Shown here in pieces: positions 4,466 to 57,126 of a stretch of DNA of 64,000 bases. Each line of letters opens with the position of its first letter. Within the stretch, counting starts at the first letter, position 1. The stretch is from a virus. The notes beneath the pieces are model-generated. The model was not told the origin of the DNA. It saw only the letters and a list, made by a program, of their open reading frames with translations, and searched no databases. The translations under genes were made by a program, and so were the position numbers. The stretch covers positions 1 to 64,000 of IMG/VR virus record IMGVR_UViG_3300047276_000181. One strand, given 5' to 3'.

Positions 4466-4856
4466 AGACAAGATTATAGAGGAGGCAGACCGGGTAAAGA
4501 ACCTACTACTCAGAAAGAACGCCTCATACGGAGACAGCGCACTCAAACCTGCAAACGTCTTCGCCAAAGGTTCAGCAGTTGAGAATCTATGCTCACGTAT
4601 AGATGACAAACTGATGCGTATCAAGAATCGAGGCATCAATGTAGACACTACGGATACTATAGATGACTTGATTGGTTACCTAATTCTTTTAAACATAGCA
4701 CTCAAAGATGTTAAATCCGAATCTACTGAAGAGGCAGGTGACAATGTTCGCCAACATAACGGAAACCAAGACACCACACTCAGTGTCAGTGGAGCAAGTT
4801 ATTGGACGGACTCAAACACCAAACGAAAGTACATCTGGCCTGATATCGAAGATTAG
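4455..4856 (+). CDS. DUF1599-like / MazG-related nucleotide-associated protein
   Basis: 133 residues from ATG 4455. The motif run LLRKNASYGDSALKPA, then SRIDDKLMRIKN and TDTIDDLIGYLILLNIAL, matches the family annotated as DUF1599 or 'nucleotide modification associated domain', an all-alpha NTP pyrophosphatase-like fold with acidic helix pairs. The last 110 or so bases overlap the primase-helicase gene in another frame, so the final 38 residues are coded in doubly used DNA. Confidence 0.65.
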   Translation: MSSKDKIIEEADRVKNLLLRKNASYGDSALKPANVFAKGSAVENLCSRIDDKLMRIKNRGINVDTTDTIDDLIGYLILLNIALKDVKSESTEEAGDNVRQHNGNQDTTLSVSGASYWTDSNTKRKYIWPDIED

Positions 4857-6567
4857 GAGCGGAGAAAACGTTTCTGAGAACAAGAAGAGACTCCCCGTCA
4901 TTTTATGGTCGGGGATTTTTTCTGAGCGCTCCGATAGCGCAATCGAAGAACACTCCGGCCTAATCGTAATAGACTTCGACCACGTAGATGTAGAGAACGT
5001 AAAGGCGTCACTGGCCTACGATGAGTATACCTTTATATGCTATACGTCACCCAGTGGCAATGGCGTAAAGGCGGTAATACAAATCAGCAACCCAGAGCGT
5101 CACCGTGACCACTTCCGTGCCGCAGTCAAATACTACGAGAACCAGTACGGTCTATCAGTTGATACATCAGGTGTTAACGAGTCTCGTGCCTGCTACGAGT
5201 CATACGACCCCGATGTTCTCGTAAACCCGAACGCTAAGGTCTTCGGTCATATGTTGACCGAGCGTGCCGAAGCGCAGAAGGTGGAGGCACCTAAGGATGT
5301 AGTCACTGATTACGACAACCTGAATATCGCCGTACGTATGATTCGTAAGGCGGCAGACGGCGAGAAGCATTCGGTACTGCTACGTGCGGCTAGGCTGTGC
5401 GGTGGATACATTGAGATTGGCCGTATGGAGGAAGACGAGGTTCACCGCGTCCTACTTCGTGAGATTCAAAAGAAGAATATCGAGTCAGTCGAGAACGCCA
5501 AGCAGACCATTGACTATGGCATACAGGAGGGCCGTAAGATGCCCATCAAGGAACTGCTCGAGGAGAGAGACAAGGCCCAGCGAGAGATGAAAATCAACGA
5601 CGGTGATATGTCATTCATATCATCGGACGATGAGGACTTCCGTTGGATTAACGACTTCGCCGAGGGTAGAATCAAGATGGGTCTCGATACCGGTGTTCCA
5701 GCACTTGATGAGCACTTCAGATTCAAGAAGAACTTCTCAATCATCAATGGTCACTCAAACATTGGCAAGACTACGTTCGCAGCATACCTTCAGGTCGTGT
5801 CCGCTATGCGCCACGGATGGAAGTGGATGATGTATACGAGTGAGAACAAGACCGCGTCTCAGAAGATGAAACTGATGTCCTTCGCTATGGGGATGGCAGT
5901 TAATCAGATGAACTATCAGCAACGTAAGATGGCGTTCGAGTGGGTGAATAAACACTTCACGTTCATCGACAACAAGTCGGTGTACTCATACTCAGACATA
6001 TTATTGTTTGCCGAGAAACTGATGCGTAACCAGGAGCTTGATGGAATCTTTATTGACCCATATAACTCACTTCGTCGTGACATCGGAGCAGGAAGCAAGC
6101 TCGGCGTACACGAATACGATTACGAGGCTACGAGTGAGATGCTTACGTTCTCCAATGCCCATAACGTGGCATTGTGGTTGAACACTCACGCAGTAACTGA
6201 GGCTCAGCGTATGAAGGGTGACGATGGTCTACCCATCGCTCCGTTCGCAGAACAGACAGAGGGTGGCGGTAAGTTTGTGAACCGTGCTGATGACTTCTTC
6301 ACGTTCCACAGAAAAATCCAACACCCTGACCCGACGATGCGTAAGACGGTTGAGTTTCACGTTCGTAAGGTTCGCGAGACTGAGACTGGAGGTTCACCGA
6401 CCCCTCTCGACGGTCCGATACTATTTGAGATGAACTATAACGGCTCGGCCTTCTATCACGTAGGTTCAGGCTCTAAGATGTTCACTCCACTGCACGAAGC
6501 TCAGAACACCGTACAGCAATTGCAGACTACGGATTTCGAGGTTGGTAGTGTAGATGACGCATTCTAA
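4744..6567 (+). CDS. primase-helicase (BT4734/VirE-type N-terminus plus RecA-like helicase)
   Basis: 607 residues from ATG 4744, chosen because the family begins near 'MF.NI.ETK.P'; an upstream ATG at 4708 is possible. Residues 1-150 show the BT4734/VirE N-terminal pattern (LPVILWSGIFSER, HSGLIVIDFDHVD, CYTSPSGNGVKAVI), a primase-like fold with DFD as probable metal ligands. The C-terminal third carries a Walker A loop (GHSNIGKTT), a Walker B strand (LDGIFIDPYN) and a downstream NTHAVTE motif, as in DnaB/T7 gp4-like helicases. It would prime and unwind at the fork, the central replication enzyme visible here. No zinc finger is present. Confidence 0.8.
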   Translation: MFANITETKTPHSVSVEQVIGRTQTPNESTSGLISKIRSGENVSENKKRLPVILWSGIFSERSDSAIEEHSGLIVIDFDHVDVENVKASLAYDEYTFICYTSPSGNGVKAVIQISNPERHRDHFRAAVKYYENQYGLSVDTSGVNESRACYESYDPDVLVNPNAKVFGHMLTERAEAQKVEAPKDVVTDYDNLNIAVRMIRKAADGEKHSVLLRAARLCGGYIEIGRMEEDEVHRVLLREIQKKNIESVENAKQTIDYGIQEGRKMPIKELLEERDKAQREMKINDGDMSFISSDDEDFRWINDFAEGRIKMGLDTGVPALDEHFRFKKNFSIINGHSNIGKTTFAAYLQVVSAMRHGWKWMMYTSENKTASQKMKLMSFAMGMAVNQMNYQQRKMAFEWVNKHFTFIDNKSVYSYSDILLFAEKLMRNQELDGIFIDPYNSLRRDIGAGSKLGVHEYDYEATSEMLTFSNAHNVALWLNTHAVTEAQRMKGDDGLPIAPFAEQTEGGGKFVNRADDFFTFHRKIQHPDPTMRKTVEFHVRKVRETETGGSPTPLDGPILFEMNYNGSAFYHVGSGSKMFTPLHEAQNTVQQLQTTDFEVGSVDDAF

Positions 6568-31898: not shown

Positions 31899-31921
31899 TC
31901 AAGTCTTGTTCTCACCAAAGT

Positions 31922-31952
31922 TTGCAGAATTGAAAACTATTTCGTATATTTG
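31922..31952 (+). promoter_or_regulatory. host-type promoter of the moron gene
   Basis: TTTG ending at 31924, a 20-base spacer, TATATTTG at 31945-31952, then the ATG 24 bases later. It is a complete promoter facing against the surrounding late genes. Confidence 0.75.
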
Positions 31953-53806: not shown

Positions 53807-54630
53807 CCAGCAAGTGCACTAGCACGTATACATACAAACAGTGCACGTGAACGACCGTTAGTCGGAAATACGGTAGCGATGCAAGGGCGAAGAGCCAACA
53901 GCGTCACTCGCCCGCGCAAACATAGGTCGCAAGACATAAACGGACTGCGTATCACGGGTGGCGTGTGCTTAGACGAATCCAAGCAGTCATTCCTCCCATT
54001 CTCTACTATTTTAACTGCTATTTTCCCTACCGTGTACGGTTCCGGGGCCTCCATTTGTTTTTGTGATGAGTTGTATACTCCGTGGGGAGAATTATACAAG
54101 AGAGCCGCTGCGACCACGAACCCGAAACGTAATCCCGAACCCAACCCCCTCGTTATCAGCGCGTTACGTTCGAACTTTTTAGCGTTTCCTGTTGGGGTGG
54201 GTGAGTAAGTAGTATGCCTACTTTGCGTCGCTATTCGGTTGTTTTCCCATATCGATTCGGTTCGTTCGCTGTCAGAAAACTAGGCGAAAACGTGTCACCG
54301 ATTCCGTGCTTTTTTTCGGTGGTGGATTTGGTCGTAGACCTGCATCAATCCCCCCTACGTTTTACCCTATAATTCGTCCCCTATTTATTACGCCAATCTT
54401 GGTACGTTAGGTACGCATAATTGTGTACTCTTATTCGTATGCTATTTAGTATACTATAGTAGACGGGGTTTCCTGTGGTTTACTAATAAGAAAACCCCTA
54501 GATTTTATGTAGGCTATTTATTAAACGAAAAAAGTATGCTTTGTGCCGTATTCCGTACATATTGGCGTCAGTTAAGTCGCTGTCTTGTAGGCTGTTAGGT
54601 GCTGAAATACGTGCATACGATTTCTTAAAT
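53807..54630 (+). other. noncoding region, first part: probable transcribed leader RNA with hairpins
   Basis: Open frames here are short or of implausible composition (Arg/Ser/Pro, no hydrophobic core), so I see no genes. It contains stable hairpins: TTGTATA/TATACAA around CTCC/GGAG (54070-54101), CACCGA/TCGGTG (54296-54322), and GGGGTTT/AAACCCC (54465-54498). With the promoter at 53776, at least part is likely transcribed. The use is unknown. Confidence 0.45.
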
Positions 54631-54634
54631 GGTG

Positions 54635-54825
54635 CTGATTATCAAGGAGTTACGTTAACTAGTTGTATTTCAGTACGTTGTAACTTGCTGAGTTTTAGGT
54701 AGTTAGTAACTATCTGATTTTCAGCGGATTACTAACTCGTTGATTATCAGGTACTTTTATTTAGAACGATTCTAAATTTCACCTCGACTAAAACTTTTTT
54801 TTGTGCGCTGATTATCAAGCAGTTA
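54635..54825. repeat. array of five 18-bp repeats in alternating orientation (iteron- or att-like)
   Basis: CTGATTATCAAGGAGTTA at 54635-54652 and CTGATTATCAAGCAGTTA at 54808-54825 differ by one base. TAACTCGTTGATTATCAG at 54733-54750 is the same motif inverted. Degenerate copies lie at 54681-54698 (inverted) and 54714-54731 (direct), each 13 of 18 matches. The alternation (+, -, +, -, +) suggests paired protein-binding sites: an origin, or recombinase arms. No integrase is visible in this window. Confidence 0.55.
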
Positions 54826-54880
54826 GCCCTATATATTCCTTATAGGCGAGCGGGGAGTCCAAACTTTTTTGGGGTTAGAG

Positions 54881-54911
54881 TTTGCAGATTTGTAAAGTCG
54901 CCGTATGTTTG
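54881..54911 (+). promoter_or_regulatory. host-type promoter of the candidate large structured RNA
   Basis: TTTG at 54881-54884, a 19-base spacer, TATGTTTG at 54904-54911, placed exactly where the sequence changes from A/T-rich to GC-rich and hairpin-rich. Confidence 0.65.
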
Positions 54912-54915
54912 TGGT

Positions 54916-55583
54916 GTCGAAAGGCCAACGGGCCCCCCACCACGACGAATTGAAATAACAACCGAAACGCGAACTCAGAGTCGGAGACAAGAGCAGAGCG
55001 CGGTAGGCAGGAAAGTCCCAAGTGACGATAGGCGGAGAGATGCTAGCGAAAGCGCCTCCCAAAAATCGGAAACCCACCTTGTGAACCCTGTACGATTCAG
55101 TCAGTAGGCCGCGGCCTACGGGCTGTCGGGCGTTAGGGAGCGGAGTAGCAGGTCAGGTCTGATTGAGTAGGCGATGTAATCCAAGTGAGTAGCGTAAGTA
55201 GGCTAGCACATTCCGACCGAAAGTAGCGAGGGCAGGTAGACGAGACGAGCGAAGCCAAGTATGGCGGCCGTAAGAAACCGAGCACGAACCTAACTAGACC
55301 GAGCGCCGCGGCGCTTAGGTCTTGAGCAGTTCGGATGAGGCCAATGAACACCGCACGAACACCAAAGCAAATCAAGTCAAAACAAGCCGAGAACAACGAC
55401 AGCGAAAGACAGCGTATGCGGTGCGTAAACAGCGCCGCCAAAGGATAGCAGTCGTGGAGGAACTAACAGCGTATGCGGTAGATGTTGCGAGCAACAACGC
55501 CGCCAAAAATGTTCACCTGTTCAAGGCAAACTACTGCCGCTTGGAGTGCCGCAAGGCATAGGGTTCGAGTCCCTACGGCAGTC
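54916..55583 (+). ncRNA. candidate large structured noncoding RNA (about 670 nt) ending in a tRNA-like element
   Basis: Starts just after the promoter at 54881 and has no credible coding frame. Hairpins include GGCC/GGCC near the 5' end, AGGCG/CGCCT with a GCGAAAGC loop, and perfect palindromes GTAGGCCGCGGCCTAC (55104-55119) and AGCGCCGCGGCGCT (55302-55315), the latter inside an outer AGACC/GGTCT stem. Twin hairpins at 55418-55438 (GCGGTGC/GCGCCGC) and 55475-55503 both follow a copy of ACAGCGTATGCGG. The 3' end is a tRNA-like acceptor and T-arm. Size, GC content and a tRNA-like end near tRNAs recall the phage-borne giant RNAs GOLLD and ROOL, but I cannot confirm membership; it may be a new family. 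Confidence 0.55.
55533..55583 (+). ncRNA. tRNA-like 3' element (acceptor stem, hairpin, T-arm)
   Basis: ACTGCCG (55533-55539) pairs with CGGCAGT (55576-55582); directly inside is a canonical T-arm TAGGG/CCCTA with loop TTCGAGT, and before it a TGCC/GGCA hairpin with a GCAA loop. D-arm and anticodon arm are missing (19 bases where about 42 or more are expected). The hairpin resembles the long variable arm of a class II tRNA (Leu/Ser-like), so it could be the 3' half of such a tRNA or a genuine tRNA mimic. Confidence 0.6.
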
Positions 55584-55632: not shown

Positions 55633-57126
55633 ATGAAAGTCACCAACATCGTATCAGGCCGCAAGATTGAATACTACCGCTCATACTACAACGAGCAGTT
55701 CGACTTCTACTTCGGAATCAACAACGATTACTTCGTGTACAAGTACCTCGCTAGCGACGGAACCACGCAACGCACTCGCTTCCCAAAAGCGCTCAACCAC
55801 GAGCAGTACGGAATCGACTTATTGCTTCGCTGTCACGAGTCAATGTTTATCACAATCGGTGCGCTCCGCGCTGAAGCCGGCGTTTACTACCGCCGTGCCG
55901 ACGGACAGCGCAACCCGAACCGCATCGAGGGTTTCCCTCACCTTGAACTCAGCGACGCTACGTTTGAGGCTGTGCCTATGAACGAGCGCAACGCCGACTT
56001 TGTTTGCGTTGTTATCGACGGCCAATTGTACACCACCGACCTGTGTGCGTCCTCCAATTACCCCACCTCAGAGTACCCACTATTCGGTGCAAACTTCGCC
56101 GCTCAGGAGATACGACTGCACGACCAATACCGCCACGAGTACATCAACCAAATCCGTCGTAGCGACAGCGAGTTGGTTATTGGTGAATGGGGCGGTCGCA
56201 CCGCAATCTTCGAGAACGCCGAAATCGGTCGTCGCCACGGAGACGCACCCAACCTGTCAGGCTACCACGGCCCTGCGCGAACTATGGACATCCTCAACGA
56301 CGAGAGCGTTGATTGGTTCGTAGGCATCGAGGTTGAGAAAGAAGACCAAGAGGCACGCAACCGCTGTGCTTGGGCTAACTGCGACCTCGGCAACGGATGG
56401 ATTGTAGAGCGTGACGGCTCACTCGATAGCCGCACAGGTTTCGAGGCCGTGTCACCTGTACTCGACCTGCTCAACACCAAGTCGCTGTTCGACGAGTTCG
56501 ACCGCCTCGATTGGATGCTGAACTCGACATACTCACGCCGTTGCGGTGGTCACATCACCATCAGCCGTCGCGGCCTGTCGACCGACCAATTGGTTGAGAA
56601 ACTGATGCCGTTCGTACCGATGCTGTTCAGCCTGTACGAGGGTCGCCTCAACAACGGCTACAGCGGTGTGCAGAGCAAGGACGAAATCGAGCGCGGTTCA
56701 CGCCGTGCCATTCACCGCAAGAGCAACGGCGCTGTCGAGATTCGTATCTTCAGCGCAGTGCCTAGCGTTCAGGGCTTGCAGTTCCGCATCAAGTTGGTGC
56801 AGTGGATTGCCAAGCACATCGACAAAGGCACGTTCACCACGTTCGCCGAGGTTGCCGACGCAATGTTCACCGACAAAAAGTTGAACAAGTTGCTTCGCAC
56901 GCAGTACAGCGCCGAGAAACTTGCACGCAAGCAAGCCTTGGCCTACGTATTCGGCGGATGCATCGAGGGTCAGTCAGCCACTGACTTCCTCAAGAACGCT
57001 AAGGATTACGACCGCACGATTGAGCGCCTACAGCGCGCATACTCAAGCGTGTCTTCGTTCGTACGCCGTGAGGTTGAGGGTCGCTTCTCAACGCACACCA
57101 TCCGCAAGGCTATCGGCCAAGCGTAA
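55633..57126 (+). CDS. amidoligase-family protein (GCS/ATP-grasp-like COOH-NH2 ligase)
   Basis: 497 residues. The C-terminal half carries the Amidoligase_2 motifs: WFVGIEVEKED (about residue 227), ERDGSLD then TGFEAVSPVLD (about 259-275), and CGGHITISR (about 305), the acid and His ligands of a glutamate-cysteine-ligase-like fold. The N-terminal 200 residues are a separate domain with no recognised name. Such enzymes form amide or peptide bonds with ATP, modifying peptides, proteins or surface polymers. It is first in an accessory operon with a class II amidotransferase 1.4 kb downstream. Arginine is almost always CGC here, unlike the CGT-rich left arm. Confidence 0.75.
   Translation: MKVTNIVSGRKIEYYRSYYNEQFDFYFGINNDYFVYKYLASDGTTQRTRFPKALNHEQYGIDLLLRCHESMFITIGALRAEAGVYYRRADGQRNPNRIEGFPHLELSDATFEAVPMNERNADFVCVVIDGQLYTTDLCASSNYPTSEYPLFGANFAAQEIRLHDQYRHEYINQIRRSDSELVIGEWGGRTAIFENAEIGRRHGDAPNLSGYHGPARTMDILNDESVDWFVGIEVEKEDQEARNRCAWANCDLGNGWIVERDGSLDSRTGFEAVSPVLDLLNTKSLFDEFDRLDWMLNSTYSRRCGGHITISRRGLSTDQLVEKLMPFVPMLFSLYEGRLNNGYSGVQSKDEIERGSRRAIHRKSNGAVEIRIFSAVPSVQGLQFRIKLVQWIAKHIDKGTFTTFAEVADAMFTDKKLNKLLRTQYSAEKLARKQALAYVFGGCIEGQSATDFLKNAKDYDRTIERLQRAYSSVSSFVRREVEGRFSTHTIRKAIGQA

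Follow-up and report, generated by a model that had tools for sequence, protein, structure and literature searches.

We know of only a few giant phage RNAs, and of none with an assigned function. A different kind of long non-coding RNA, MALAT1, is cut at a minihelix consisting of an acceptor stem and a T-arm, and such a minihelix suffices for RNase P. The phage RNAs GOLLD and ROOL form RNA-only particles in which separate chains are joined by kissing loops, and GOLLD, the linker of which sometimes carries tRNAs, has been found bound to ribosomes in pull-downs (PMC12286853). Phage hammerhead ribozymes, in turn, have been proposed to process long transcripts (PMC3088659). Here, we describe a phage locus that recalls each of these systems: a large structured RNA with a conserved pair of complementary loops and a tRNA-like 3′ end, which is exchanged for a predicted hammerhead in a related phage.

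The DNA analysed, hereafter the window, is a 64-kb part of an IMG/VR virus record of 67,255 bases. Its terminase shares 41% identity with the terminase of the Flavobacterium elemo podoviruses and 47% with that of MW202828, and these identities together with the promoter type point to a phage of Bacteroidota; we present it as a virus of aquatic bacteria. The RNA separates a leftward structural arm, which includes terminase and portal, from a rightward arm, and no other non-coding gap in the window is as large as the one that contains it (1,424 bases). The replication genes (primase/helicase, ribonucleotide reductase) are located on the same strand, at the opposite end of the window. An earlier note, made from the sequence of this stretch, had likened the RNA to large phage RNAs known near tRNAs, a location that does not apply here: the only two tRNA genes found in the window by ARAGORN are 44 kb away. 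The features of the locus, all on the plus strand, are as follows.

54881–54911, plus strand: Bacteroidota-type promoter (TTTG at 54881–54884, 19 nt, TATGTTTG at 54904–54911)
54911–54946, plus strand: 5′ leader hairpin GUGGUG...CACCAC with GUCGAAAG, from sequence comparison
55012–55235, plus strand: central structured domain with 61 consensus pairs, 26 of them with compensatory changes, on which the covariance model R1 is based
55098–55125, plus strand: putative kissing hairpin 1, loop GCCGCGGC at 55108–55115, GCCACGGC in all relatives
55266–55277, plus strand: stretch invariant in the alignment, GGCCGTAAGAAA
55297–55321, plus strand: putative kissing hairpin 2, loop GCCGCGGC at 55305–55312, GCCGUGGC in all relatives
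55409–55438, plus strand: hairpin GCGGUGC/GCGCCGC preceded by ACAGCGUAU
55466–55503, plus strand: ACAGCGUAU and hairpin GCGG/CCGC around a variable hairpin, conserved in all groups
55533–55582, plus strand: tRNA-like minihelix with acceptor ACUGCCG/CGGCAGU, hairpin UGCC-GCAA-GGCA and T-arm UAGGG-UUCGAGU-CCCUA
55633–57126, plus strand: amidoligase-like protein gene, outside the RNA, probably on the same primary transcript

Several other elements have been seen around the promoter and elsewhere in the window. Four copies of a partly palindromic repeat of the TGATTATCA type (roughly TTGATTNTCAGNNNGTTA) are found at 54635–54825 and nowhere else in the window; such repeats also precede the RNA in relatives and may be an operator or replication iterons. 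A palindrome resembling Fur/PerR-type operators (TTATTTAGAACGATTCTAAATTT, 54757–54779) lies upstream of the RNA promoter and is kept in several homologues. A second strong promoter match, TTTG-N20-TATATTTG, is present inside the leftward structural arm (31921–31952, plus strand), just ahead of a plus-strand reading frame beginning ATGAAAACATCAATTGC.

Homologues of the RNA were sought with three kinds of query: the protein encoded next to it, the terminase, and words conserved in the RNA itself. They were found in about 14 IMG/VR phage contigs (L002–L005, L007, L009, L011–L013, L091, L093 and L098–L101), most of them at the same divergent intergenic site, and they fall into four sequence groups, with identity down to about 68–75% over the alignable part. 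The GenBank phage collection gave no DNA match to this RNA or to the RNAs of two other phages, L221 and L064, that are described below, and R1 had no match in 295 genomes of the Flavobacterium-centred class under strict filters, in a search run with no positive control. A pattern scan of genome contigs, with a pattern that proved too loose, returned matches of a chance type, no homologous RNA being found by blastn among those checked; a looser pattern over the viral loci added no further true member. A weak R1 match in the L234 contig (11.8 bits, E 0.03) was taken as chance. Within the limited range of open-access literature searched, no description of this RNA was found.

The host-type promoter proposed in the earlier note stands. 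The pattern TTTG-N17-20-TANNTTTG occurs four times in 64 kb against 0.74 times expected from shuffles, and the promoter is recognisable in all homologues. The GUCGAAAG part of the leader that follows is common to the leaders of L002 and of L042/L221, which carry another RNA (see below). In L002, L221 and L235, the leader hairpin is followed by boxA-like words, which hint that a long untranslated transcript may be subject to antitermination as in rRNA operons; the window has no clear boxA. As had also been noted, the region is GC-rich relative to its upstream flank (55% in 55001–55500 vs 40% in 54501–55000) and holds no credible protein gene: each forward frame of every homologue contains at least seven stops, in addition to indels, and no reading frame is conserved. 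An ATG-started frame seen in L002 was considered as a small protein and rejected, since L003 has a stop within it and indels disrupt it in other homologues. Codon-level protein conservation, which the earlier note had named as evidence against an RNA, was looked for in the homologues, and coding is excluded. The stretch 54911–55582 is strongly supported as the gene of a structured non-coding RNA with a conserved Bacteroidota-type promoter in front.

The earlier note had left open whether this is GOLLD, ROOL or a new family. A search with all 4227 Rfam families gave none at its gathering score over 54881–55583, and the GOLLD and ROOL covariance models each gave no match at E ≤ 10 in the window or at E ≤ 5 in L012. 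The sole noteworthy match at E ≤ 10 is at the tRNA-like end, with mascRNA-menRNA (RF01684; 30.9 bits, E 5.6e-4, gathering score 42.5); the other three are far under their cut-offs, with E above 1. The body of the RNA matches neither GOLLD, ROOL, RNase P, tmRNA, tRNA nor any other Rfam family, which settles the question in favour of a new one; judged by these searches, the window RNA would be an uncatalogued family within the kind of large ornate phage RNAs.

Evidence for the fold comes from comparison. In the central domain, 94.6% of cells pair over the 61 consensus pairs of seven distinct sequences, and changes on both sides with pairing kept occur at 26 pairs (60 cells), against 16.2 and 20.5 in shuffles, none of 500 being as high. 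When the partners are slid by 1–3 columns, at most 5 pairs and 10 cells have double changes. Both controls have limits, since a structure drawn from the alignment itself tends to outdo slid partners, and kinship among the sequences can raise their counts above those of shuffles. Because the effect is large despite these caveats, we take a true RNA structure to be the only reasonable reading of the central domain, and the compensatory changes that the earlier note had asked for are thus provided by the homologues. Folding of nine sequences at full length gave double changes at 41 of 130 pairs. The folding energy of the single sequence is unremarkable (z -0.32) and was discarded as evidence, so that the structure is proven by comparison only and the hairpins alone prove nothing. 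Of the GNRA-type loops listed earlier, the GCAA tetraloop is not conserved. The two hairpins each said to be preceded by ACAGCGTATGCGG do exist, with exactly two copies of this word in the window (55409 and 55466); its last four bases belong to the hairpin as its 5′ strand. L011/L012 keep the second copy only.

Two apical loops appear to be linked at a distance. All column pairs of the nine-sequence alignment were examined without preselection of palindromes, and the only strictly complementary run of at least 6 nt in all nine sequences is one of 8 nt between the apical loops of hairpins 55098–55125 and 55297–55321, the cores of which read CCACGG and CCGUGG in all of the relatives aligned. Those eight relatives agree completely at 299 columns, and the window departs from them at only two of these, 55111 and 55309, which are the facing bases of the loop pair (A-U to G-C), which makes one double change in all for the loop–loop covariation. 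This co-change and the conserved complementarity argue for a kissing interaction between the two loops. The palindromes pointed out earlier, 55104–55119 and 55302–55315, are exact in the window, but palindromy is absent from the relatives, which keep only the loop-to-loop pairing; it is therefore an accident of the window genome, and the palindromes were rejected as self-dimer sites. The idea of self-complementary loops survives in an altered form: the complementarity is real, and what is conserved is two different loops matching each other.

The canonical acceptor/T-arm that had been recognised at the 3′ end is likewise conserved. In the minihelix at 55533–55582, a 7-bp acceptor and a short joiner are followed by a hairpin of 4–5 bp, which stands where a tRNA would have its D and anticodon arms, and then by a 5-bp T-arm whose loop is UUCRANU. 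It is the sole such element in the window, and none turned up in a strict scan of both strands of the 1.24 Mb of viral loci after a single mononucleotide shuffle. Among six elements compared (window, L011, L012, L042, L221 and L235), 39 of 42 acceptor cells and all 30 T-stem cells are paired, a single position showing as many as four types of pair, and the middle hairpin is re-paired from UGCC/GGCA in the window to UGCAC/GUGCA in L007 and UGCGC/GCGCA in L099. ARAGORN and the Rfam tRNA model detect no tRNA with D and anticodon arms here, and no CCA is encoded. By its shape, the element is probably cut by host RNase P at 55532/55533. Further stand-alone minihelices are found between or after phage genes (L221:5589–5629; L235:2833–2880 and 4827–4870), which suggests that minihelices are general transcript-cutting signals in these phages. 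A hexaloop AAUYGG/AAAYGG recurs in the minihelices of L011/L012 and L220/L221 and in other hairpins of these RNAs.

Other large RNAs occupy the equivalent locus in related phages. L042/L220 and L221 have an RNA of about 750–800 nt (L220:3170–3990, corresponding to the minus strand of L042; L221:3170–3980). Its leader (GUCGAAAG-GACAAACG) is related to that of the window RNA, its minihelix is of the same kind, and the gene downstream is homologous; two of its predicted hairpin loops, CCUAUGG and CCAUAGG, are complementary. Blastn did not link the L042 RNA to that of the window. A third non-coding stretch, of about 550 nt, is located at L064:2130–2700 (minus strand; L254 is identical), and has the complementary hexaloops GAUGUC/GACAUC, a kind of pair present in 2% of shuffles. 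R1 has no match in L042, L221 or L064, and so gives no support for common descent of those bodies with the window type. The 3′ end of the L064 RNA, equivalent to the site of the minihelix in relatives, is a predicted type III hammerhead, which at 35.7 bits (E 7.4e-6) falls short of the Rfam gathering score of 48.5, with intact fold and the conserved core CUGAUGA and GAAA within three stems; known from this one distinct sequence, it would cleave itself after ...AGTATGTC. Two further relatives, L018 and L020 (terminase 74%), have neither a minihelix nor an R1 match at L018:6000–7100 and L020:6000–6930, where only a leader hairpin, a boxA-like word and a short hairpin are seen, so that the site can apparently do without the large RNA.

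The reading that we favour, and hold to be somewhat better than an even bet, is that of a free-standing large structural RNA, released by RNase P (by self-cleavage in L064) and folding or multimerising through loop kissing. Transcription would start just after 54911, making the RNA the first transcript of the rightward arm, and the product of about 600–615 nt would fold into the covarying central domain. Hairpins 55098–55125 and 55297–55321 would clasp, either within one molecule or between copies, the latter giving oligomers and perhaps a role in particles like those of GOLLD and ROOL. The minihelix would act as a decoy pre-tRNA, a cut before 55533 freeing the RNA from the downstream mRNA, and in L064 the hammerhead would take its place as the release device.

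The strongest competitor, in our view unlikely, is that the RNA is a giant 5′ untranslated region or riboswitch of the amidoligase-like gene and the minihelix an element of mRNA processing or stability. This gene family, which has no significant Pfam or PHROGs match (best Pfam Amidoligase_2, E 0.034, in one homologue), does track the RNA locus: it comes immediately after the RNA in four cases (window, L002, L003 and L009), and in L012 and L042/L221 the RNA is followed by homologues of the gene. However, small unrelated reading frames come first in L007/L093, L091 and L011/L012, and an unrelated gene follows the L064 RNA; such variable genes fit an independent RNA and argue against gene-specific regulation. 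Moreover, either 3′ device, minihelix or hammerhead, stands between the RNA and the gene and would set the two apart rather than couple them.

Somewhat less likely still is that the minihelix itself does the work, by mimicking a tRNA and binding or sequestering a host factor (RNase P, EF-Tu, CCA-adding enzyme or ribosome), and that the large RNA serves as its carrier. In favour of this are the strong conservation of the minihelix with its UUCRANU T-loop and the parallel of GOLLD, which binds ribosomes in pull-downs and in some cases has tRNAs in its linker (PMC12286853). The lack of an encoded CCA bears on both readings: it counts against release by RNase P, as the minihelix could serve another tRNA-binding protein, and it also counts against a mimic of tRNA. 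The presence of a hammerhead instead in L064, and of minihelices after protein genes in L221 and L235, better fits a processing signal.

A trans-acting regulatory RNA, of an antisense or protein-sponge type, with the two ACAGCRUAUGCGG hairpins as protein sites, seems improbable: the two copies share flanks (ACAGCGUAU before and CAAA after the hairpin), but L011/L012 are without the first, and conservation is mostly in the central fold and loops rather than in these repeats. We strongly disfavour a phage attachment site, even though attP sites often carry a tRNA 3′ half, as the 67-kb record has no phage integrase (PF00589), both acceptor strands change together, which is not required of an att core, and the body covaries as a folded RNA.

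Returning to the free-standing RNA, a wider proposal can be made, tentatively and with more doubt than conviction: that one locus of related Bacteroidota phages hosts a guild of large RNAs with non-alignable bodies (the window, L042/L221 and L064 types), each having apical loops that complement one another and an interchangeable device for release at the 3′ end (a hammerhead, or a tRNA mimic for host RNase P to cut), and that these assemble into RNA-only particles during infection, as a further nanocage-like class beside GOLLD and ROOL. The new family has a testable anatomy, with a mapped 3′ release device, a co-changed loop pair and a ribozyme swap in relatives, and the idea that such RNAs need to be cut free and then clasp becomes directly testable in vitro.

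Among known systems, tmRNA also has a tRNA-like acceptor and T-arm within a larger RNA, but in the window RNA the acceptor strands are adjacent at the 3′ end, there is no tag reading frame, and neither ARAGORN nor the Rfam tmRNA model detects a tmRNA. Phage hammerhead ribozymes (RF00008; PMC3088659) have a likely counterpart in the predicted type III hammerhead at the end of the L064 RNA, yet this one terminates a large non-coding RNA at the minihelix site of its relatives, and the window RNA has none. With GOLLD and ROOL, its nearest analogues, the window RNA shares the 600–800 nt size class, a phage-encoded and non-coding nature, covarying structure and conserved complementary loops; it differs in matching neither by sequence nor by covariance model, in having a minihelix end instead of a location near full tRNA genes, and in its probable Bacteroidota hosts. 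Finally, mascRNA of MALAT1 and menRNA (RF01684) likewise close a long non-coding RNA at its 3′ end with a tRNA-like acceptor and T-arm around a shortened middle. Theirs is the animal nucleus and not a bacterial virus, and the likeness, at a score under the gathering cut-off, is one of shape only, probably through convergence. The phage RNA would be a bacterial counterpart of the MALAT1/mascRNA strategy, a long non-coding RNA ending in a tRNA mimic.
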